From an uncultured Granulosicoccaceae bacterium (GTDB lineage: Bacteria > Pseudomonadota > Gammaproteobacteria > Granulosicoccales > Granulosicoccaceae), in the NCBI GenBank assembly GCA_937928685.1, contig CALGJU010000118.1, forward strand, positions 1-56,286: 56,286 nt of DNA, read 5' to 3'. Made by a program: the position numbers and the translations under genes. The notes under the pieces are model-generated. The model was not told the origin of the DNA. It ran no database searches and saw nothing but the letters and a program-made list of their open reading frames with translations. Every line of letters begins with the position of its first letter. Within the stretch, counting starts at the first letter, position 1. Positions 8,267 to 56,286 of this stretch are shown piece by piece.

Positions 8267-11200
8267 ATGAAATATCTGATTGGTGAAATTGGATTCTCAC
8301 TACTCGTTGCAAGCTTGATCGGATTGTTGATCGGCTGGCTTATCAGTCAGTTTCTCAGGTCCAGGGCATTGGCCCGGAATCGTAATCACTACGAGGGGGC
8401 GTTGCAAAACCGCGATCGGGAAATCGATCGTCTTCGATCTGATTTGCGCCACGCAGGACGCGGCCGATCAAACCAGCGATTGGCCAACGACGCTAATCAA
8501 TCCCATCGTGGGCAGGCGCACGCCGAGCACGCCGGAACCCACCAGGGTATCGTTGGTGGTCAACGCACGGCTGGCAGTGCAGAGTCTGGATCTCGCACCA
8601 CCACAGTAACCGGGCCTGCCGTCAGTCGACCGGCTATCGTTCGACCAACTATCGGTTCAGGCGCGAAGCGCCCGACTTCGAGGTCTGGGTCAGCTGAGCG
8701 CAGTACAACTCACCGGCCCCCTATTGGTCAACCGGGCAAATATTCGGTAGCGGCCAAAGACATACGTGGCAATAGCGCCTCGTTGCGAGTGAAGGCGCCA
8801 CAGAGTAGCGGTGGCCAGCGAAACGCTAATGTATCCGATACCCGGGTATCCAATGATCGGGAAGACAAACTGAAACGTGCGCTGGATGATGAAGCCTATG
8901 CGAAGATTCAGGCGCTGGCGGCATTGGGCGAACGTGATCGTCAGTTGCAGTATTCCTACGCTGCACCGGTAAAAGCGCCATCCACGTCGGCGAAGGACAT
9001 AAATCAGTATCAGAAGTTGCTGGATCAGAAGAACAGCCAGGTCAATGAGCTGCAGCGAAAAGTACGCGATTTGATTGCCTCAGAGGGTGCGCGATCAAGT
9101 GCACCTGCGACGACCGGACTCACCAGCGTTCGTGAGCGGCAGTTGAAATCCAGCATTGAAGACGAAGCTTACGAAAAGGTCCGTGCATTGGCAGGGTGGG
9201 GTGAGGCAGAAAGAAAGCTCTCCCTGGTATCGCAGGCCAAGCCGCAGGTTGATCAAGAGATTGCACCACTGCGTCGCCGCACGGAGCAGCAGGAATCTAT
9301 CATCACCGATCTTCGCAAGCGTCTTGCGCTGCAACAGCAGCAGGCGGAACTCGCTCGTCAGGAATCAAATAAGCAACTTTCACTGCTGAAAACAAAGCCC
9401 AAGCCGGTTGTTGTCGACAGTGATATCGTGCCATTGCGTCGTCGTGCCGAGCAGCAGGAATCAATTATTTCTGATTTGCGCAAGCGGCTGGAAAAACAGC
9501 AACAGCAATTTGATGATGCAAGGCGTGAATACGATCGGAAGATTTCCGGTCGTGAAACCGACTTGGCCACCCTGCGAGCGGAAATAGACAACGAGCCGGA
9601 TGGTGCGAGTCAGGTCGAGATAGACAGCTATAAGAGAAAGATCTCTGAGCTTGAAAGGGCAGGCCAAAGCCGAATTAAGGAATTCAACGCTACGCTTGAG
9701 TCACGCAACAAGGAATACGACCAACTTGGGACTCGCCTCGAGGAACTGCGTACACAGGTGACCGCAAGAGATACCCAGATAAACACTCTGAAGGCAGATC
9801 TTGAGCAGCAAAGTAAGGTGAAAGCCAAGCTTGAGCTAGATGCCAACAGGTTCCGGGAGCAGGTCGGTGCGTTGGAGATTGATCTCAAAGAGCGTGATTC
9901 GAACATCACCCGGTTCAAAGGCTCCGCTGCAGACCTTGATAAAACAAGAGCAGAAATGAGCGAAATGGAAAATCGCCTGGCGCAGTTCACCCGAACCACC
10001 GAGGAGTCGTCGAAGAAATATGAAGGTGTGATTATTGAGCAGCGCGATCGCATTGAGCTGTTAGAAGGCCAGACCAGTGATTTACAAAAGCAGATCAAAG
10101 AGCGGGACGATCAAATTGTACCGTTGCGCAAAGCGGTCAAAGAAAATGAAAACAAAGTCGCCACGGTCACTGCTGATGTAGGTCGCTTTCGATCCCAGGT
10201 AACCGGCAAAGAGGCAGAGCTAAGCAAGAAAGACGCAGAGCTTGCGCAGGCTGAAAAAGCCCTGGTGGCTGCTCGAGCTGATGTCAAAAAATCAGAAGCA
10301 GAAGTGGTAACACTTAAGCAGTCGCTAAAAGAGCTTGAACAGATTAGGCAAAAGAAGTCTGAGCTCGACAAGAAAGTGGTTGATCTCAACAAGGAATTGG
10401 ATTCCGCCAGGAAGACTCATGCTGCAACGCTCAGCGAAGTGTCGGCTAAGGAGCAGAAGATTGTTTCTTTTAGCAAGCAACTGGATGACCTCAAAAAGCA
10501 TGAGGCTGAGTCCAAGCGCCTGAAGAACGAGTTGGACGGACAGGTCACAGAGGCGAATTCATTGCGTGCTCGCGTGACTGAACTTACCCCGCTTCAGGCC
10601 AAAGTGCGGGAAAGCGAAATGAAGTTTACGGCCTTGCAGACAGAGCTGAGGTCGACTGGTGAGAAAGACAAAAGACAACTCGCTGATCTGCAATCCAAAT
10701 ACGATACTGAACAAAAACAGTACACGGAAAAATTAAACAAGCGTGATGCTGAAGTTGATGAGCTGAGAAAGAAAATCAGCTCGCTCGAGAAGCTTAAGTC
10801 CGATCTTGACAACCGTGACAATGAGATCAAGTCACTAAGGTCAAAATTGCAGGGGCTCGAGAGTGAACAGCAGGCGCTGATAAAAGCTCGTGAGCAACAT
10901 GGCATTGAATTAAAGAAGTCACAGGCTGACGCTGATGGTCTGCGTCCATTTAAGAAGCAAGCTGACGATACCCGTAACGACCTTGAGAAGCTTAAGGTTG
11001 AGATGCGCCAGGCGGGTGAGAAGCACAAATCTGAACTTGACGCACAACGTAAAAAAGCATCCGAGGCAGAATCGGGCTCTCGCAATCTGGTGGCAGAACG
11101 TGACAAGCAAATACAGAAGCTGCAATCAGAGGTAAAAAACCTGGAAGCCTTACGGGGTGATGTTGCCGAGCGAGATAAAAAACTCGCTACAGTTACGGCA

Positions 11201-14200
11201 GAAATTGAGGCTAATAAAAAGAAGTCGGCTCAGCTTGAATCGGAGATTGGCAAGCTAAAGCAGGATGCACAATCAAAAGAAAACCAATATCAAGCAAGAG
11301 TCAAAGAGCTTGAGCCCTGGCAGCAACGTTTTAAAGACACGGAGCAAAAGCTAAAAGCTAAAGAGGGCGACATTGTTAAGCTCAGGGCAGATTCACAGTC
11401 TGAGCTACAACGTAAACTCAATGCGGCAGAGGAGCAACATAAACAGTTGCTGGCACAGCGTGACAAGCGGATAGCCGAGTTTGAAATTAAAATCAAGCAG
11501 CTTGATGCGCTTAAGAGAGACATTGCAGACCGGGACAACATGCTTGGCGAGTTGAACGCTGAATCATCTGCTGCTCAAAAACGCTATGAGTCTTTGCAAC
11601 AGAAAATAAAAATCACTGAGGAGCAATCCAACGCCAGAATACAAAAGCTAACTGCGGAGCTTGATGGCGAGAAAAGACAGATTCAGGGTTTTCAGTCTGA
11701 AATTGTTGGTTTTAAGAAATCAATTGACGACAGGCAGAGTCGCCTCAGTCATTCTGATGGTGAACTGAAAAAGCTGGAAGGCCGGGTCAAAGAGCTTGAG
11801 CCTTTACGCCAGAGACTCAGCAATCGTGACAATGAGTATAAGGCACTCGAAGAGCAGCACAGAACATCGAGTGCAAAGTGGTCAAGTGAACAGTCTTCTT
11901 TGCAGAATCGCATAAAGGAACTTGAGCCACTTAAGCAGAAATTATCGACGCGTGAAAATGAGCTGAGAGCACTTGAGGAGCAACACAAAAAGGCGACGTC
12001 GAAATGGACCGGTGAAACCGCTTCGCTGCAGAATCGCATTAAAGAGTTGGAGCCGTTGAAACAGAAGTTGTCTTCACGGGATAATGAATTTAAAGCGTTG
12101 GATGAGCGTTATAAGTCAGCGGTATCGAAATCCACTTCTGAGCTATCAACTTTGCAGAACCGGATCAAAGAGCTTGAGCCATTGCAGCACAAGTTGACCT
12201 CTCGAGAAGCTGAGTACAGAGCACTGCAAGAGCAACAGAAAGCCGCGACTGCCAAGGCGGCCGGTGAAGTATCTGCATTGCAGAATAGAATTAAAGAACT
12301 GGAACCGTTGCAGCAGAAGCTGTCTTCACGTGAAAGTGGCTATCGAGCGCTTGAAGAGCAGCACAAAGCGGCTGTCGCGAAATCTGCCAGTGAGTTATCT
12401 GCACTGCAAAATCGTGTGAAAGAGCTCGAGCCATTGCAGCAGAAGTTGTCTGCAAAAGAAGGTGAATACAGAGCACTGCAAGAGCAGCAAAAAGCGGCCA
12501 GTGGCAAAGCGGCCAGTGAAGTGTCTGCTTTACAGAATCGTGTCAAAGAAATTGAACCGTTAAAGCAGAGCTTGTCTTCACGTGAGAGTGAATACAGAAG
12601 GCTTGAGGAGCAGCACAAAGCAGCTGTCGCGAAGTCTGCCAGTGAGCTGTCTGCGGTGCAGAATCGAGTGAAGGAACTTGAGCCGCTGCAGCAGAAACTG
12701 GCGTCACGTGAAAGTGAGTACAAAGCGCTTGATGAACGACAAAAAGCAGCCAGTGGTAAAGCGGCCAGTGAAATATCTGCTTTGCAGAATCGAGTGAAAG
12801 AGCTTGAGCCACTGCAGCAGAAGTTGCTGTTGAAAGAAAGCGAATACAGGAAGTTGGACGAGCAGCATAAGGCTGCTATTGCGAAATCTGCCAGTGAGTT
12901 GTCTGCTCTTCAGAATCGGGTGAAGGAGCTTGAGCCGCTGCAGCAGAAGTTGTCGTCACGTGAGAGTGAATATGGAACGCTCCAGACGCAGCACCAAGCG
13001 GCTATTGCGAAGTCGGCTGCTGAGTTGTCAGCCTTGCAGGATCGGGTAGATGAACTTGAGCCGTTGCAGCAGAAACTGTCATCGCGAGAAAGCGAGAACA
13101 AAGCGCTTGAAGAGCAACACCGCGTAGCTATCTCGAAGTCAGCTGCTGAATTGGCGGCATCGCAGAGTCGAGTGAAAGAGCTGGAGCCGTTGCAACAAAA
13201 ACTCGCTTCGCGGGAAAGTGAATATAGGTCACTTGAAGAGCAACTTAAGTCCTCGAACTCAAAGTGGGGGGCGGAGACTTCAGAGTTGCGAAAGCGCATT
13301 GGCGAACTGGAGCCGTTGCAACAAAAGCTGGCAGCTCGAGAGAGTGAATACAAAGCGCTTGAAGAACAGCACAAGTCAGCGAGTTCAAAGTGGGCGACAG
13401 AGTTGTCGATGCTACAGAACAAGGTGAAGACCCTTGAGGCTGTGGAGCAGAAACTGGGCACGCGTGAAAATGAGCTTGCCGCGTTGCAGGTAGCGCAAAA
13501 GTCTTCTAACGCCAAGTGGGCCGATGACGTATCTGTCTTGCAAAAGCAGGTGCGTGAGTTGGAGCCGTTGCAACATAAACTCACCAAACGTGAGTCAGAA
13601 TTTGCGGCACTTCAGGAAGCGCAGAAGAACGCCAACGCAAAATGGTCGAGTGATGTGTCTGCCTTGCAAAAGCAAGTCGAAGAGTTAGGACCGTTACGCC
13701 AACAGCTCGCCAAGCGTGAGTCTGAATTCGTGGCACTGCAGGAAGCGCAAAAGAACGCTAACGCCAAATGGTCCGGTGACGTGTCGGCCTTGGAAAAGCA
13801 GGTTGCGGAGCTTGAACCGTTGCAGCAGAAGCTTGCTAATCGTGAGTCTGAGTTCGCGGCACTACAGGAAGCTCAGAAGAATGCTAACGCCAAATGGTCC
13901 GGTGACGTATCGGCCTTGGAAAAGCGGGTAGCGGAGCTTGAACCGTTACAGCAGAAGCTCGCTAATCGTGAGTCTGAGTTCGCGGCACTGCAGGAAGCTC
14001 AGAAGAATGTTAACGCCAAATGGTCCAGTGACGTGTCGGCTTTGGAAGAGCAGGTAGCGGAGCTCGAACCGTTACAGCAGAGGCTCGCCAAGCGCGAATC
14101 TGAGTTCGCAGCGCTGCAGGAAGCTCAGAAGAATGCTAACGCCAAATGGTCCGGTGATGTGTCCGCCTTGCAAAAACAGGTGAAAGAACTTAAGCCACTA

Positions 14201-16150
14201 CAGCAGAAGCTCGCGAATCGTGAGTCTGACTTCGCGGCGCTGCAACTGGCGCAAAAGAATACCAACGCCAAATGGTCCGGTGACGTGTCAGCCTTGCAAA
14301 AGCAGGTGAAAGAGTTGGCTCCGTTGAGACAAAAGCTTGATAGACGCGAATCAGAGCTAAAAGCCTTGCAGGAAGCCCAAAAAGTATCAAACGTCAAGTG
14401 GGCGCGTGATGTCTCTGTGTTACGCAAAGAGGTGAAGGAGCTCGATCCGCTGCGACAGAAACTTGCCAAGCGGGAGGCCGAATTCAAAGCGCTGCAGGAT
14501 GCACAGAAAGCATCCAATGCAAAGTGGGCTGGTGACGTTTCCGGATTGCAGAAGCAGGTGCGGGCCTTGAGCGCCGTGCAGCAAAAGCTTGAGAAGCGTG
14601 AAGCGGAGTATAAAACCCTTCAAGAGTCCCAGAAGGCCGCCAAGGTTTCCTGGACAAGTGATCTCTCTGCTTTGCAAAAGCAGGTGAAGGAACTCAGTCT
14701 GGTGAAGCAAAGGCTTGAAAAGCGGGAAACAGAACTCAAAGCTTTGAGTGAAGCACAAAAAGCGGAAAAGGCTCAGTGGTCTGATGAACTGTCGACGGCT
14801 AAAAGAAGCGCCAGTGAATCCGGCAGGCATCTCGAGCAACTGCGGAAAACCAGTGAGCAGTCACGGGCCAGGTTTGAAGCGACTGAAAGCAAGCGAGTCT
14901 CGGAGCTTGAAGCGCTTCGACAGCGTTTGAAGGTTGCAGAAGCACTGCGGGCTGAAGTAGTTTCAAAAGATAAAAAGCTTGGCTTGTTTGACAAGCAAGT
15001 GTCTTCACTGAAGCGAGACGTGGGTACTCAACAATCAAATGTGGTGACGCTCAGGAAACAAGTGAAAGAATCACAATCACTTGCCAGTCAGCGTGAGAAA
15101 GAACTTCAGCGGCTTCAGAAGTCTGTTAAAACGCTTGAGGCGAGTATGGCGCGTCGTCACACTGAAACCGAAAAAAGTAAGCAGTCTCTTCAGACAAGCC
15201 TGACAGATGCGAAGCGTAAGCTGGCTGAGTTATCCAAACTGCAAAAAGAAGTGGCCAGCCAGAAGGCCTCTGCGGCGGAATTACGCAAGCAGTTAAGTGA
15301 AAAAACCATTCAGGCGAAGCGTGTTGCTCAGCTTGAGAAATCACTGGCATCCGTGCAAGCCAGACACGGCAAAGATGTCTCCAGGCGGGATCTGGAAATC
15401 GAGCGCTTAAAAGCCATGATTAGTAAGCTTAAAAGCGCGCCGAAACCAAAGCCCGTTGCTAAACCGATCGCAAGACCAAAGCCTAAACCCAAGGCCAAGG
15501 TGGTTGCAAAGCCGAAGCTTACTGCAGACGGTAAAAAGACCACGCGTAAAGATGGTCAGGATGATCTCAAATTGATTTTTGGTATTGGTCCGAAGATCGA
15601 AAAGATGCTGAATCAAAAGCGCGTGACTAAGTTTGAGCATATCGCGAAGTGGAAAAAAGCTGACGTTGAGAAGTACTCAGAGATGCTTGAAGGCTTTCCG
15701 GATCGCATTGAGCGTGATGAATGGGTGCTAAGTGCCAAGCAGATTCTTGCTGGAACTTATAACTGGGCCGAGCGACGCAAAGCGCGAGAAGCTCAAAATA
15801 AGAACAAACCTGCAAAAAAGGTGGCTAAGAAAGCCAGCAAGCCGAAGAAGGCTGCAGTCACTGCGGACGGTAAGAAAACAACCCGTAAAGATGGCAAGGA
15901 TGATCTTAAACTGATCTTTGGGATTGGGCCTGCGATTGAGAAAATGCTGAACGACAAGGGGGTTAATAATTTTGAAGATATTGCCGCCTGGAATAAGGCT
16001 GATGTAGAGAAGTACGCCGCGATGCTTGACGGCTTCCCGGATCGGATTGAGCGCGAGGAGTGGGTGTTAAGTGCCAAGCAGATTATTGCCGGAACTTACA
16101 ACTGGACCGAACGCCAGAAAGCCAATCAGCAGAAAAAGGATACGGAGTAA
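8267..16150 (+). CDS. Giant membrane-anchored coiled-coil protein with two C-terminal helix-hairpin-helix-type domains
   Basis: A 2627-residue protein with a good ribosome site. Residues about 8-30 form one hydrophobic helix (LLVASLIGLLIGWLISQFL). Residues 35-200 are basic and low in complexity. Two copies of a DDEAYAKIQALAALGE-type motif follow near 205 and 290, then two copies of PLRRRxEQQESII. From about 330 to 2380 the chain is heptad-rich coiled coil, including 24 tandem 42-residue repeats (1173-2180). A Lys/Pro/Ala tail leads into two copies of an H3TH/helix-hairpin-helix domain (about 2432-2500 and 2545-2612; core LKLIFGIGPxIEKMLN and FPDRIERxEWV). This domain type is known from COG3743-like proteins described as FEN1-like. 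I infer a tether between inner membrane and nucleoid or another cytosolic partner; no enzymatic residues are evident. Actual function is unknown. Confidence 0.85.
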   Translation: MKYLIGEIGFSLLVASLIGLLIGWLISQFLRSRALARNRNHYEGALQNRDREIDRLRSDLRHAGRGRSNQRLANDANQSHRGQAHAEHAGTHQGIVGGQRTAGSAESGSRTTTVTGPAVSRPAIVRPTIGSGAKRPTSRSGSAERSTTHRPPIGQPGKYSVAAKDIRGNSASLRVKAPQSSGGQRNANVSDTRVSNDREDKLKRALDDEAYAKIQALAALGERDRQLQYSYAAPVKAPSTSAKDINQYQKLLDQKNSQVNELQRKVRDLIASEGARSSAPATTGLTSVRERQLKSSIEDEAYEKVRALAGWGEAERKLSLVSQAKPQVDQEIAPLRRRTEQQESIITDLRKRLALQQQQAELARQESNKQLSLLKTKPKPVVVDSDIVPLRRRAEQQESIISDLRKRLEKQQQQFDDARREYDRKISGRETDLATLRAEIDNEPDGASQVEIDSYKRKISELERAGQSRIKEFNATLESRNKEYDQLGTRLEELRTQVTARDTQINTLKADLEQQSKVKAKLELDANRFREQVGALEIDLKERDSNITRFKGSAADLDKTRAEMSEMENRLAQFTRTTEESSKKYEGVIIEQRDRIELLEGQTSDLQKQIKERDDQIVPLRKAVKENENKVATVTADVGRFRSQVTGKEAELSKKDAELAQAEKALVAARADVKKSEAEVVTLKQSLKELEQIRQKKSELDKKVVDLNKELDSARKTHAATLSEVSAKEQKIVSFSKQLDDLKKHEAESKRLKNELDGQVTEANSLRARVTELTPLQAKVRESEMKFTALQTELRSTGEKDKRQLADLQSKYDTEQKQYTEKLNKRDAEVDELRKKISSLEKLKSDLDNRDNEIKSLRSKLQGLESEQQALIKAREQHGIELKKSQADADGLRPFKKQADDTRNDLEKLKVEMRQAGEKHKSELDAQRKKASEAESGSRNLVAERDKQIQKLQSEVKNLEALRGDVAERDKKLATVTAEIEANKKKSAQLESEIGKLKQDAQSKENQYQARVKELEPWQQRFKDTEQKLKAKEGDIVKLRADSQSELQRKLNAAEEQHKQLLAQRDKRIAEFEIKIKQLDALKRDIADRDNMLGELNAESSAAQKRYESLQQKIKITEEQSNARIQKLTAELDGEKRQIQGFQSEIVGFKKSIDDRQSRLSHSDGELKKLEGRVKELEPLRQRLSNRDNEYKALEEQHRTSSAKWSSEQSSLQNRIKELEPLKQKLSTRENELRALEEQHKKATSKWTGETASLQNRIKELEPLKQKLSSRDNEFKALDERYKSAVSKSTSELSTLQNRIKELEPLQHKLTSREAEYRALQEQQKAATAKAAGEVSALQNRIKELEPLQQKLSSRESGYRALEEQHKAAVAKSASELSALQNRVKELEPLQQKLSAKEGEYRALQEQQKAASGKAASEVSALQNRVKEIEPLKQSLSSRESEYRRLEEQHKAAVAKSASELSAVQNRVKELEPLQQKLASRESEYKALDERQKAASGKAASEISALQNRVKELEPLQQKLLLKESEYRKLDEQHKAAIAKSASELSALQNRVKELEPLQQKLSSRESEYGTLQTQHQAAIAKSAAELSALQDRVDELEPLQQKLSSRESENKALEEQHRVAISKSAAELAASQSRVKELEPLQQKLASRESEYRSLEEQLKSSNSKWGAETSELRKRIGELEPLQQKLAARESEYKALEEQHKSASSKWATELSMLQNKVKTLEAVEQKLGTRENELAALQVAQKSSNAKWADDVSVLQKQVRELEPLQHKLTKRESEFAALQEAQKNANAKWSSDVSALQKQVEELGPLRQQLAKRESEFVALQEAQKNANAKWSGDVSALEKQVAELEPLQQKLANRESEFAALQEAQKNANAKWSGDVSALEKRVAELEPLQQKLANRESEFAALQEAQKNVNAKWSSDVSALEEQVAELEPLQQRLAKRESEFAALQEAQKNANAKWSGDVSALQKQVKELKPLQQKLANRESDFAALQLAQKNTNAKWSGDVSALQKQVKELAPLRQKLDRRESELKALQEAQKVSNVKWARDVSVLRKEVKELDPLRQKLAKREAEFKALQDAQKASNAKWAGDVSGLQKQVRALSAVQQKLEKREAEYKTLQESQKAAKVSWTSDLSALQKQVKELSLVKQRLEKRETELKALSEAQKAEKAQWSDELSTAKRSASESGRHLEQLRKTSEQSRARFEATESKRVSELEALRQRLKVAEALRAEVVSKDKKLGLFDKQVSSLKRDVGTQQSNVVTLRKQVKESQSLASQREKELQRLQKSVKTLEASMARRHTETEKSKQSLQTSLTDAKRKLAELSKLQKEVASQKASAAELRKQLSEKTIQAKRVAQLEKSLASVQARHGKDVSRRDLEIERLKAMISKLKSAPKPKPVAKPIARPKPKPKAKVVAKPKLTADGKKTTRKDGQDDLKLIFGIGPKIEKMLNQKRVTKFEHIAKWKKADVEKYSEMLEGFPDRIERDEWVLSAKQILAGTYNWAERRKAREAQNKNKPAKKVAKKASKPKKAAVTADGKKTTRKDGKDDLKLIFGIGPAIEKMLNDKGVNNFEDIAAWNKADVEKYAAMLDGFPDRIEREEWVLSAKQIIAGTYNWTERQKANQQKKDTE
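11783..14806 (+). repeat. 24 in-frame tandem repeats of 126 bp (42 residues, six heptads)
   Basis: Each unit starts with [RQ]-[VI]-x-E-L-E-P-L-x-Q-K-L and carries a mid-unit R-E-[SN]-E-[YF]. I counted 24 consecutive units without insertion or deletion (residues 1173-2180). Units 1-13 form class A (ending SALQN, with EEQHK in the middle). Units 14-24 form class B (ending SALQK or SALEK, with QEAQKNANAKW). Units 4-9 alternate between two subtypes, so they look like three 252-bp pairs. Units 15-20 are nearly identical even at the DNA level. 42 = 6 x 7, so every unit preserves the heptad register. Confidence 0.93.
15521..16150 (+). repeat. Tandem duplication of the Lys-rich linker plus H3TH domain
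   Basis: A unit beginning TADGKKTTRKDG starts at 15521 (residue 2419) and again at 15860 (residue 2532), a period of 339 bp or 113 residues. Within the folded part the copies agree at most positions (LKLIFGIGP, VEKY, FPDRIER, WVLSAKQI, AGTYNW). The linkers outside the folds are strongly basic and Lys/Ala/Pro-rich. Confidence 0.9.
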
Positions 16151-52456: not shown

Positions 52457-54199
52457 TTAAAAACTAAAACGTTTGGAGAAACTGACGTAAGCACTGTAGT
52501 CATTGCTGGCTTCGGTCAGGCCGGCCACCACACCGGCGGACATGAAGGTCGCCGTACCTATGACCGATGAAACCCCAATATTTAGCGAGCTGTCTATGGC
52601 CTTACTGCCTCGAATAGTTGCACCATTGAGGGATGCTGAATCAATGACCGTATGGTTAAACGAAAATATAAGCGATGTATAGGGGCTGGCTGCCAACAAG
52701 GTGCTGGCAGAGAGCCTGGTGATAGCGCCTGCCTTGAAGCTGTCTTTTTCGATTGGAAAAGAGCGGCTGATACCATAGGTAAATACTAACGGGTCCTGCC
52801 TTTTGGTAGCGCGTAATCCAAGTTCTAAAGATTCAAGGTTGTCGCCAAGCTGTATTCCGTTATCGCTGTTACCCCAGTCCGAATCGTAAGTGACTTGGGC
52901 AATAATGTCTGGCCGCCTGCCTTGCTCCTGCGCCAGAGTTTTTGCAAGTGAGATGGTCATATCTCCAGCGCCGGTGGCGTTAGCAGAAACACCGTCAATT
53001 TCGGTGTTAGAGACTAATACATTTGATTCGCTGCTGGTTTTTTGCAATGGCAATTGAAATCGTATTTGCGCGTCACCTGGCAGGCCAAAGGCTACTCCCA
53101 GGTTTGCCCCATAGATTGTGCGAATGTTTTCTATTTCACCCACGTTGTTTGTTGATTCCCCCTCGTTGGTGATTTCAACCAGCTCAGCGCGCTTTGTTAA
53201 ATCATATGCCAGAGAAAAATCCAGGCTGGTCTCCACTTGCCGCGATTCAAGTAGCAGGGCGTTAATGCTTACCAGCGAGCGTTCAAGTGCGCGAGTAGCT
53301 GCATCTTCATCTACTTCGAACAGACCTGGTGCGGGGCGGGGTTTTGGTGGTTCTTGTGCTGGTGGTTTGTCTGTTTCTTTGGGTGTGTTCAGGGTTGGTT
53401 TTTGAATTTCTGGTGCTTGTGTTGGGGGTTCTGCTTTTTCTATCCGGGGACTTTGAGTTCCGGGTACTGCCGGGGGGGCGACAGGTTTGTTGGTGGTTGC
53501 TTCGTTTTCAGGTGAAGGTGTCCGGGGTTTAGATGCTTCGCTCTGCTCTGATGCGTTGGTTCGCTGAGGTTGCGTAGCCACAGGTTTGTCTGCAGTTGCT
53601 TCAGTATCACTTGAAGGTTTCTCAGGCTCGGTTGTTTCAGTCTGCTCTGATGCACTTGATCGCAGAGGTGGGGTTACCACGGGCCGGGGTGTGGCAACCG
53701 GTTTGGCTGTGAAGAAGACTTCGGTTGCGGTCTCTGTTATCTCTTTGTCTGCTATCTCCTTGTCTGGTTCAGGAGAGTCCTGCTCTTCACCGGCGATGGT
53801 TTCATCGAAGCAAATTGTCAGTCCACAGTAGTCCGGGTTGTTCTCAGATGAGAATTGCGCTGCGGTTGTTACCATGGAATTTGCCACCAGGTAGGTGGGT
53901 ACGCGTATGACATCACCAATTTCAAGGAGTGGAGAAGCCAGGTTGTTGTATTGGCGAAGCGCCTCTGTCTTTCGAAGCGTGGGTTCTACACCCAGGTTAA
54001 GTAGAACAGAAGAAAGACTACCATTGGGTATAATTGAAACCGAGATGTACTTCGGTTTTTCGGGCGTGTTGCCGGAGACGGAGGGCCTGCCAGGTATCAT
54101 TTGATCAGGCTGAGCAATCAGTGGTTGTTGTGGCGTTGCCGAATTACCCACAACAGGTGACAACAACAGTACTGCAAATACAAAGCTACGGTTTGTCAT
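52457..54199 (-). CDS. Outer-membrane beta-barrel protein with Pro/Thr/Glu-rich linker, FapF-like
   Basis: 580 residues from the ATG at 54199 (MTNRSFVFAVLLLSP, AAGGAAGG upstream). A signal peptide (1-22) is followed by a small N-terminal domain (about 45-105; LLNLGVEPTL and LLEIGDVIRVP, loosely LysM-like), a low-complexity Pro/Thr/Glu/Ser-rich region with imperfect repeats (about 130-300; KPVATQP, EPPTQAPEI), a short helix (ATRALERSLVSINALLL) and a barrel of alternating strands ending in Phe (SFSKRFSF), as outer-membrane barrels do. The barrel motif (LESRQVETSLDFSLAYD ... NVGEIENIRTI) resembles the amyloid pore FapF and phenol-MetA-type barrels. It lies 53 bp after the C39 peptidase, which supports a role as its export partner. 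Confidence 0.7.
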   Translation of the reverse strand: MTNRSFVFAVLLLSPVVGNSATPQQPLIAQPDQMIPGRPSVSGNTPEKPKYISVSIIPNGSLSSVLLNLGVEPTLRKTEALRQYNNLASPLLEIGDVIRVPTYLVANSMVTTAAQFSSENNPDYCGLTICFDETIAGEEQDSPEPDKEIADKEITETATEVFFTAKPVATPRPVVTPPLRSSASEQTETTEPEKPSSDTEATADKPVATQPQRTNASEQSEASKPRTPSPENEATTNKPVAPPAVPGTQSPRIEKAEPPTQAPEIQKPTLNTPKETDKPPAQEPPKPRPAPGLFEVDEDAATRALERSLVSINALLLESRQVETSLDFSLAYDLTKRAELVEITNEGESTNNVGEIENIRTIYGANLGVAFGLPGDAQIRFQLPLQKTSSESNVLVSNTEIDGVSANATGAGDMTISLAKTLAQEQGRRPDIIAQVTYDSDWGNSDNGIQLGDNLESLELGLRATKRQDPLVFTYGISRSFPIEKDSFKAGAITRLSASTLLAASPYTSLIFSFNHTVIDSASLNGATIRGSKAIDSSLNIGVSSVIGTATFMSAGVVAGLTEASNDYSAYVSFSKRFSF

Positions 54200-54252
54200 A
54201 ACGGCCTTCCTTGACTGTGTTGACAGCATCTTGCTGTCTGACTCCTACTTCC

Positions 54253-54885
54253 TTATCTAAGCATAACAAAGTCGAGAGCGCTGGGAAGTAGTTTGTTTAA
54301 TCCGGGGTCAGTGTCGTCTGAACGGACTACGAATCCTATCTTCCCGAGATCTCCAAAATCGATCCATGCTTTTGCGAATTCTGACTTACTTAAAATTCTA
54401 TTGCCCCATGCGGGATCTGCCACCAATACTCTATTGCCTGCGAGCGCACGAAAGATAACGAAATGGTTGTAATCCTGCAGTCGCACTGGAATTATCACCG
54501 GAGCTTGTTCTATTAGGTTATCGAGCTCCAGTCGTCCAAACCCTTCGCCCTTTAATCCAAGTCTCTCAACGTGACGTTTGAGATCCAGCAGCGAAAAACC
54601 CTGCTTGTATTTTAAAAGATCTGGATTTTCAATATATTCTTTGCGTTGTATCAGTGCTGTGGCAACTTCCTTTTCCGTTGTGTCTATTCCATGTTGATAT
54701 CGCAGGATTGTTGTAAGTGCTGCGGCACCACAACTTAAATCCCACTCCTGTAGTACCACATTTTTTTTTCTCATTTCCAATAGCGAGACAACACTGCGGG
54801 TAGAGCCGAAGCCGATTAATGGAGTTGCAGATAGAAGTGTGGCTATCAGCGCTGGTATGAAAATTCTTCTTAGTGCATTGTCCAT
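54253..54885 (-). CDS. Exported C39-type cysteine peptidase, FapD-like
   Basis: 210 residues with a signal peptide (RRIFIPALIATLLSATPLIG) and AAGGAA before the ATG. The peptidase core has the oxyanion Gln46 and nucleophile Cys52 in LQEWDLSCGAAAL, His141 in DYNHFVIF and Asp157 in VLVADPAWGN, the full C39 triad. Bacteriocin-type C39 domains are fused to ABC transporters in the cytoplasm; this one stands alone and is exported, as FapD of the Fap amyloid system. GFSLLDLKRHVERLGL is also FapD-like. Neighbours are the barrel protein and two exported proteins with double-glycine-like motifs, its probable substrates. Confidence 0.85.
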   Translation of the reverse strand: MDNALRRIFIPALIATLLSATPLIGFGSTRSVVSLLEMRKKNVVLQEWDLSCGAAALTTILRYQHGIDTTEKEVATALIQRKEYIENPDLLKYKQGFSLLDLKRHVERLGLKGEGFGRLELDNLIEQAPVIIPVRLQDYNHFVIFRALAGNRVLVADPAWGNRILSKSEFAKAWIDFGDLGKIGFVVRSDDTDPGLNKLLPSALDFVMLR

Positions 54886-54973
54886 TTACGCATTCCTTGC
54901 AAAGTTAGTTTCCTGATTGCCTGATAACAATACAAGAAGTCTTGGGAGGTGTGACAAAAACTGGACGACGAAT

Positions 54974-55570
54974 TTATCTTCTGTTGCGATGGTTATTACG
55001 TCGAATAGATCTTGTAACAACCCGAACGTTTAATGTATTTGTCTCTGTTGTTGGTCCGTTCTGAGCTTGTCTTCTATTTGATCTTGAACGGTGACGAGTT
55101 CGAACGGTAACGCGGCCATGTCGATTGATCCGTACGCGAATAACAGTGGTGCCTGTCTCTGAATTATGTATCCGTTGTACCAGCCTCAATGACTGAAGCT
55201 GTTCATCTGTCACCAGTTGATAGCCTGTTTCTGTAAGAACCATTTCACCAATCGCCTCAGCGGTGGCTGTGCCTGTACTGACCGTTCTTGTGCGACCCCG
55301 TCGGTTGCGTCGGGGTTTGGACGACTGAATATTAACATCTGTCACTGTTATTGTGACAGCACCCGTGCCTGAAGCAGCGGCGTTACTTGTCAGTGTTAAC
55401 TCAACGAATCCTGCGCTGACTCCATCCAGCTGTGAATCGTCTAGCTGAATTGGCGCGCTATGGGCGGCAAGCGAAAGGGCTAGTGAAAAAAATACAGTCG
55501 CAATGCAATGGGTAAAATTTTGAAAACTCCAGGCTGCTGCGAGCTTACCAGGTACATATAAGTCGATCAC
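54974..55570 (-). CDS. Exported Arg-rich protein with a double-glycine-like motif after the signal peptide
   Basis: Start set at a GTG at 55570, because AAAAGGA lies 9 bases upstream and the signal peptide (FTHCIATVFFSLALSLAAHSA) follows; the longer frame to 55690 has an unlikely N-terminus. The product has 198 residues. After the signal-peptidase site comes PIQLDDSQLDGVSAG, with Leu at -12 and -7, Val at -4 and Ala-Gly at -2/-1 relative to the end of Gly54. The rest is Thr/Val-rich beta-like sequence with basic clusters (RRNRRGRTRT, RTRHRSRSNRR, RRNNHRNRR). No known domain recognised. It lies 88 bp before the C39 peptidase on the same strand and shares its motif with the gene at 56147. I infer a matured exported product; its role is unknown. 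Confidence 0.68.
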   Translation of the reverse strand: MIDLYVPGKLAAAWSFQNFTHCIATVFFSLALSLAAHSAPIQLDDSQLDGVSAGFVELTLTSNAAASGTGAVTITVTDVNIQSSKPRRNRRGRTRTVSTGTATAEAIGEMVLTETGYQLVTDEQLQSLRLVQRIHNSETGTTVIRVRINRHGRVTVRTRHRSRSNRRQAQNGPTTETNTLNVRVVTRSIRRNNHRNRR

Positions 55571-56146
55571 TGATCTAATTCCTTTTATCAACACGGTACA
55601 GATGTGAGCCAGTCCCTTGGCTTGGTTTTGGTAAATACAAGTACAACGGAAGTTAGTATTTTTGATATTGAGCCGGAAGTCCAGAAGCAAGTTAAATATT
55701 TATCTGAAATAGGCAAGAGGACTAGTACATTCCGGTTGCTCCTGTACCCGAATGGGGTAATTGCATTGGCTGGATAATGTTGTTATGAGGACTCGCATTA
55801 ACGCTTACAAAGTGATAGCAGTAGGGTGTTTTTTAGACTAAATCTAGAGTTTTTATTTTTTTAATTTTACATCCTATGTCATTGCAGTAGTCATATTATT
55901 AGAGGTATTGCAGATTTAATTCTAGTGGATAACAACAGCACATCTTTGTTGTAAGCGATATCGGTGTGAACGTTTTTGTCTGACATGTATTGAAGGTCTG
56001 CAATTTTAAGTGATCATTCCCCGGTAGCTTTGGATATAGACTTATTATCTATTGTATGTGTTTGTCATCGTGCTTAATAATTAGGCCGCGTTTGAAGCAA
56101 TGGACGTGCAAACAAACAATAATTAGTTTACTTAGGGAGATTTAAA
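55571..56146. promoter_or_regulatory. Divergent AT-rich regulatory region between the two exported-protein genes
   Basis: 576 bp without a supported gene. A small inverted repeat TACCC-GAATG-GGGTA lies at about 55745-55759. The stretch 55840-55930 is very AT-rich. Both flanking genes read outward and have good ribosome sites (AAAAGGA at about 55577-55586 on the minus strand, AGGGAG at 56134-56139 on the plus strand), so both promoters should lie here. I cannot place the boxes. Confidence 0.5.
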
Positions 56147-56286
56147 ATGAGACTTCTAGTTTTGGTATCTATGTTAGCGCTTGGAAGTTCGGCAGCAAGT
56201 GCCGAACCTTCTAATTCTGTTGAGCCATTGGTATTGACCGATGCACAGCTGGATAATGTTGATGCGGGCCGTCGAAATCGAAATCG
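56147..56286 (+). CDS. N-terminus of an exported protein with a double-glycine-like motif (runs off the right edge)
   Basis: 46 codons are visible from the ATG, preceded by AGGGAG at 8 bases. A short signal peptide (MRLLVLVSMLALGSSAASA) is followed by EPSNSVEP and then LVLTDAQLDNVDAG, with Leu -12, Leu -7, Val -4 and Ala-Gly at -2/-1, the same pattern as in the gene ending at 54974. The next residues are RRNRNR, again like its partner. It is divergent from that gene. The remainder lies outside the window; I do not recognise a family. Confidence 0.72.
   Translation, partial: MRLLVLVSMLALGSSAASAEPSNSVEPLVLTDAQLDNVDAGRRNRN

Follow-up and report, generated by a model that had tools for sequence, protein, structure and literature searches.

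At the right end of the window, by which we mean the whole stretch of 56,286 nucleotides analysed here, lie four genes encoding an outer-membrane barrel, an exported C39 peptidase and two exported Arg/Asn-rich precursors. The window is one whole contig (G000:C118) of a metagenome-assembled genome (MAG; 4.2 Mb, 77% complete) whose closest relatives are uncultured Granulosicoccaceae. We propose, with a probability of about 0.82, that this locus encodes a multi-cargo, Sec-dependent two-step export pathway of the FapD/FapF type. According to this model, the precursors would cross the inner membrane via Sec, and signal peptidase would leave a stub of about 15-17 residues ending in a double-glycine-type leader. 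The exported periplasmic C39 peptidase would bind this stub as the C39 domains of bacteriocin transporters do, with Leu-12, Leu/Met-7 and Val-4 contacting the C39 groove, and would cut behind Ala-Gly. The freed chain, presumably unfolded, of low complexity and rich in Thr, Ser, Ala, Gly and Asn, would then reach the cell surface by way of the adjacent FapF-type barrel and assemble outside the cell, most likely as an extracellular matrix or adhesive protein. That the proteins belong to these families, that the leader keeps the C39 register and that leader and peptidase are linked and co-occur is established by the comparisons presented below. Periplasmic cleavage and barrel export would follow by analogy with C39 biochemistry and with the Fap system, in which secretion depends on FapD being located in the periplasm and catalytically active (PMC5557850).

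Leader motif, linkage and co-occurrence

The precursors share the consensus L[TS]xx[QE][ML]DxV[TS]AG, and end-alignment of the motifs of the locus (LDDSQLDGVSAG, LTDAQLDNVDAG and LTETEMDVVSAG) places Leu at -12, Gln/Glu at -8, Leu/Met at -7, Val/Ile at -4 and Ala-Gly at -2/-1. Judged by its sequence, the motif is the canonical double-glycine leader of C39 peptidases and keeps their register exactly. In LahT, Leu-12, Leu-7 and Val-4 occupy the hydrophobic groove of the C39 domain and cutting needs no more than 13 leader residues (PMC6363468); the recognition sequence mapped experimentally for C39 in the same study is matched by the motif at each position. Unlike bacteriocin precursors, these proteins open with a Sec-type signal peptide, and the leaders of the window sit 3-5 residues behind it. 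A gap of 3-5 residues from the last AxA to Leu-12 was found in 104 of 153 precursors, so that little beyond the leader is expected to remain after signal peptidase has acted.

Precursor 1 (198 aa; 54974..55570, minus strand) consists of a signal peptide, the leader LDDSQLDGVSAG (55409..55444, minus strand) with a predicted cut after Ala-Gly, and an Arg/Asn-rich mature part; our leader profile A4 matches it at 55400-55507 (E 1.3e-8). Its preferred start is the GTG at 55570, with AAAGGA upstream, and the longest open reading frame (ORF) begins at a TTG. Precursor 2 starts with the ATG at 56147 and runs off the window (56147..56286, plus strand); A4 matches it with an E value of 7.4e-10, and the cut behind the Ala-Gly of its leader LTDAQLDNVDAG (56234..56269, plus strand) is predicted directly before RRNRNRNRNRGRNRNR. 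The last 141 bases of the window, which lie inside precursor 2, recur without a mismatch at the end of contig C68, as is typical of an assembly overlap through which C68 would continue the window rightward. On C68 precursor 2 is complete (126 aa; L003:9761-10141, minus strand), and two more exported precursors bear the motif (LNDSTLDVITGAG and LTETEMDVVSAG; L003:8924-9376, plus strand, and L003:8394-8690, minus strand). The locus thus comprises a barrel, a peptidase and four precursors. A preliminary description of the window had located the four genes as we find them, namely a barrel with its linker, a C39 peptidase with the Gln/Cys/His/Asp set and Arg/Asn-rich proteins sharing a motif; its count of two motif-bearing substrates has to be raised to four, while the motif itself holds.

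We combined the window, its first relatives and the LahT rule into a pattern and searched 80 loci with it (peptidase similarity; named genome collection); 71 of these, spanning Alpha-, Beta- and Gammaproteobacteria, have a readable C39 ORF. Within 5 kb of the C39 gene the 71 loci hold 166 ORFs with signal peptide plus leader, against a chance level of 3.6 on average and 10 at most for 30 column-permuted patterns; farther than 5 kb away there are 9, against 2.8 for the permuted patterns. Two or more leader precursors occur in 49 loci. Among the 166 leaders, L is conserved in 164, D in 160, A in 157 and G in all 166, and the remaining consensus columns read T/S, x, x, Q/E and M/L before the D and x, V/I and T/S behind it. 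The strict pattern finds motif-bearing proteins in 58 of the 71 loci, and variant motifs are visible by eye in at least two of those it misses, in line with the earlier expectation that homologous loci would contain such proteins. Of the 71 loci, 67 have a FapF-type barrel, and the four misses lie at contig ends.

Presence and absence across genomes point the same way. Within the genus, leaders (A4, E<1e-3) occur in all six genomes that have the C39, always on the C39 contig or a linked neighbour, and no A4 match at this threshold was found in the eight genomes without it (Fisher 3e-4); in the window's own genome the matches fall on C118 and the linked C68. Within the class, the C39 occurs in 4 of 369 genomes, and A4 matches at E<1e-5 occur in precisely these four, adjoining the C39 or on a linked contig, and in 0 of the 365 others (Fisher 1.3e-9). 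As A4 was partly built from genomes tested here, the absences are the stronger half of this test. A chance or compositional origin of the motif is ruled out by the permuted motifs together with this presence and absence. Many environmental bacteria carry the system, among them named strains of Methylobacter, Nitrosospira, Nitrosomonas, Herbaspirillum and Noviherbaspirillum, and Methylobacter marinus and Nitrosospira briensis are carriers available in culture; in a plasmid collection no relative was found above about 41% identity.

Peptidase, barrel and the known C39 systems

The stand-alone exported peptidase (210 aa; 54253..54885, minus strand), assigned by Pfam, NCBIfam and its structural model, matches Pfam Peptidase_C39 (E 6e-17) and the NCBIfam families FilB (1.5e-27) and FapD (4.9e-26), each of the latter two below its own cut-off; for the FapD equivalog the score is 91 bits against a cut-off of 330. 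Across 56 relatives, Gln46, Cys52, His141 and Asp157 do not vary. The model has a predicted local distance difference test score (pLDDT) of 92, and its best PDB match is 6mpz, the LahT C39 protease with a bound leader peptide. When FapD, FilB and other C39 enzymes are included in a tree, the peptidases of this system group as a single clade with a support of 100/99.

The barrel (580 aa; 52457..54199, minus strand; ATG at 54199, further in-frame ATG at 54229) consists of a signal sequence, a small N-terminal domain, a long disordered linker and a beta-barrel. Although a PDB search using the window barrel sequence by itself gave no match, the family profile A2, made from 27 relatives, matches FapF (5o65/5o67/5o68) with E 2e-25, and NCBIfam FapF matches 23 of the 27 family members (best 7.5e-17); one 'barrel' in the alignment A2, from locus L075, proved to be a wrong-frame ORF and was left out of alignment A5. 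The model of the window barrel superimposes on FapF 5o67_B with a Z score of 29.9 and a root-mean-square deviation of 1.8 over 253 residues, and the alignment covers FapF residues 88-406, helix region included. Model and conserved sequence (...FEVDExAAxRALERTLV..GALLLP...) place a plug-like helix (residues 298-311) and 12-13 predicted strands at 52460..53308 (minus strand). Profile and model both identify the barrel as a FapF homologue. The Pro/Thr/Glu/Ala-rich linker (residues 109-276; 53372..53875, minus strand) has a pLDDT below 50 nearly throughout. The profile searches thus group the barrel with FapF and the peptidase with FapD and FilB rather than with unrelated families, and the preliminary view of a Fap-related but distinct system is borne out by a FapF-like barrel that accompanies a C39 clade separate from both FapD and FilB.

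Residues 51-101 of the barrel (53897..54049, minus strand) form a LysM-like N-terminal domain, recognised from a weak Pfam match (LysM, E 0.0087, below the cut-off; best E among relatives 3.6e-6) and from the model, which shows a strand-helix-helix-strand arrangement at a pLDDT of about 76-89. The R-h-x-x-h-E motif described as the trimerisation motif of the FapF coiled coil (PMC6173795) is found, for example as RVQQLE, in most relatives outside Granulosicoccaceae; it is absent from the window barrel and its nearest relatives, which have the LysM-like domain instead. If this domain binds peptidoglycan, it would represent an alternative anchor for the periplasmic part of the barrel.

Like the Fap system of Pseudomonas, the locus combines a stand-alone exported C39 with a plugged 12-strand barrel. 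It differs in having no FapA/B/C/E matches and several unrelated leader-bearing cargoes per locus, in a leader that ends in Ala-Gly, in the separate clade of its C39 and, for the family of the window, in the LysM-like domain in place of the coiled coil. In 2017 the target and recognition sequence of FapD were left open, with FapE as the favoured substrate, and the authors described the Fap proteins as being without canonical C39 sequences and the periplasmic C39 class as uncharacterised (PMC5557850). In related loci, proteins that NCBIfam identifies as FapE homologues (E 1e-12 to 1e-20) bear a degenerate motif of the leader's shape directly behind the signal peptide, where the mature protein begins (e.g. 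LTSPEMATIRGK-Y). The Fil system of Acinetobacter is alike in its exported C39 (FilB), in a match of the barrel family to FilC and in a same-shaped motif of FilA, MDDAALSAATGQ, behind the signal peptide; however, FilA is large and conserved, and FilB-type C39s fall in another clade. Peptidase-containing ATP-binding cassette (ABC) transporters (LahT, PCAT1, ComA; EbfG/PteB of Synechococcus) share the C39 fold, catalytic set and leader register, and EbfG shows that a cargo with a double-glycine (GG) leader can serve biofilm formation, but their C39 is cytosolic and ABC-fused, with no Sec step and no FapF barrel. The gonococcal nap island reported in 2025 (NapP, NapF, NapA-C), for which periplasmic cleavage and export through NapF were proposed (PMC11798529), resembles the locus in its C39, its FapF homologue and its GG-motif precursors when gene content is compared with the published description. 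By that description, Nap peptides are short, cationic, autolysis-linked and known from one genus, whereas the proteins considered here are mostly 50-120 aa long, Ser/Thr/Ala/Gly-rich and of many families, with a Sec signal and an Ala-Gly leader.

Given the precedents of FapD/FapF and NapP/NapF, the general scheme is not new. As far as we have searched the literature, the novelty lies in a clade that is both distinct and widespread, in an explicit leader ending in Ala-Gly behind a Sec signal, in systems that each carry many unrelated cargoes and in a barrel of the LysM type. The clade provides more than 160 natural leaders with an explicit consensus beside a periplasmic-type C39, so that experiments can directly address the rule of recognition, the sequence of steps and the breadth of cargo that FapF-type barrels accept; in addition, the consensus predicts a cut site in FapE and FilA, and the leader suggests a simple tag for exporting other proteins. 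Whether the Sec signal and the Ala-Gly leader together constitute a portable export tag of a general Sec/periplasmic C39/FapF-type-barrel pathway that serves many unrelated cargoes in Proteobacteria, with Fap, Fil and Nap as specialised branches and FapD-type enzymes recognising the leader everywhere, is in our judgement an evenly balanced question.

Beside Fap- and Fil-type C39s, a double-glycine-like motif also follows the signal peptide (e.g. LDDDTLDTLRGGF, LTSPEMATIRGK and MDDAALSAATGQ) in loci L037, L038, L129 (FapE-like), L132 (FilA), L039, L040, L044 and L045, and may mark the FapD/FilB cut site. When the leader matrix of the clade was applied to distant Fap- and Fil-type loci, the C39-adjacent gene ranked top in several, not all, of them (L037, L038, L040, L041, L045 and L050), with low scores for most; a leader in FapE and FilA is thus suggested rather than demonstrated.

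Cargo proteins and competing explanations

BLAST separates the 160 mature parts into 83 clusters with no matches between them, so that the leader, not the cargo, defines the system. They are enriched in Thr, Ser, Asn, Tyr, Ala and Gly and depleted in Arg, Glu, Leu and Met, charged residues being scarce overall (Arg 0.39x and Glu 0.48x of background). The window's own precursors are cationic. Proteins like precursor 1 occur in all six Granulosicoccaceae-type loci examined, and their cluster, found in such loci, ends in Arg/Lys/Asn-rich low complexity. The Arg/Asn richness stressed in the preliminary description is a local feature, whereas the common denominator is the leader; an Arg/Asn-rich tail was rejected as a defining feature, since precursors other than those of Granulosicoccaceae do not share it. 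Pfam and NCBIfam assign the precursors to no family and give weak, scattered matches only. An extracellular matrix role is the weakest step of the model; the composition of the mature parts and the precedent of EbfG in Synechococcus, where GG-leader proteins are needed for biofilm (PMC4997328), suggest it tentatively, and we hold it to be somewhat less probable than its converse.

Given the homology of its barrel to FapF and of its peptidase to FapD, the locus might be read as a divergent Fap amyloid operon whose precursors are fibre subunits, that is, fast-evolving forms of FapB, FapC or FapE. This reading gains from one betaproteobacterial cluster (QINxSPVTxVQxN...SGN) that resembles curlin/Fap repeats and from one precursor with a weak Pfam curlin-repeat match (E 0.004), but we consider it decidedly improbable. 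None of 66 precursors, the four of the locus included, matches a FapA/B/C/E family, most mature parts are without the Q/N repeats of Fap subunits, as had been anticipated, the leader sits on several precursors per locus and the C39 clade stands apart from FapD (100/99; 91 against 330 bits). A microcin- or autolysin-like peptide system of the gonococcal Nap kind, with toxic or signalling mature proteins, would agree with the described nap island and its C39, FapF homologue and GG-leader peptides (PMC11798529), with the double-glycine leaders typical of bacteriocins and, for this genome, with the cationic precursors of the window. We regard it as unlikely, since the gene neighbourhoods inspected showed no recognisable immunity-like gene and the mature parts, with few charged residues and many Thr, Ser and Asn, are nearer in composition to matrix proteins. 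Finally, the C39 might mainly cut the barrel linker and so open or close the pore; the small proteins would then carry their leader only as a docking or targeting signal. FapF has been noted to lose linker peptides, possibly, as was suggested, through cleavage by FapD (PMC5557850); nonetheless, the barrel linkers are without a conserved C39 motif, while the leader of the small proteins retains all C39-contacted residues up to the cut site, and we think this explanation very improbable.

Several points weigh against the two-step export pathway that we prefer. The bootstrap of the C39 tree is not fully settled, every member of the C39 clade is known from its sequence alone, and signal peptides were called by a hydrophobicity rule. 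The computed tie between barrel and precursors is limited to adjacency and homology, and, besides the incompleteness of the MAG (77%), the join to C68 depends on the 141-base overlap. Moreover, loci L106 and L118 contain a C39 of the clade with no leader protein adjoining. The neighbours of the C39 in these two loci are a 750-aa protein and an ORF of about 370 aa, and they are possibly a repurposed branch of the clade.

Further loci and neighbouring genes

In one precursor cluster (14 members from 13 loci, e.g. L054:8706-9158, L057:6199-6693 and L060:9483-9911), ACC[GN] recurs mid-sequence, which suggests a conserved disulphide, metal site or modification. A different C39/barrel locus, L041 in genome G034 of the same family, encodes three small exported proteins with Gly-Gly at the end of their leaders (LSNAELDGIQGG, MSNAELDTVQGG and MSNTELAEVKGG). 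Genome G093 has seven C39 copies that form a separate clade, among them those of L049 and L050; in each of the three loci inspected, the neighbours of the C39 are an ORF resembling a barrel and an exported protein of small size (SDEEFAQVEG, LSDREMTQTTG).

Several loci are adjoined by a LuxR-type regulator whose N-terminal domain is divergent and which recalls the biofilm regulators of the CsgD type (L032:4278-5018, L034:11827-12546, L036:5564-6331, L091:7465-8181 and L102:2041-2787); by pattern it is too rare (4 of 71 loci) to be called associated. Elsewhere in the window, positions 8267-16150 (plus strand) hold an ORF of 2627 aa to which Pfam gives weak coiled-coil matches only.

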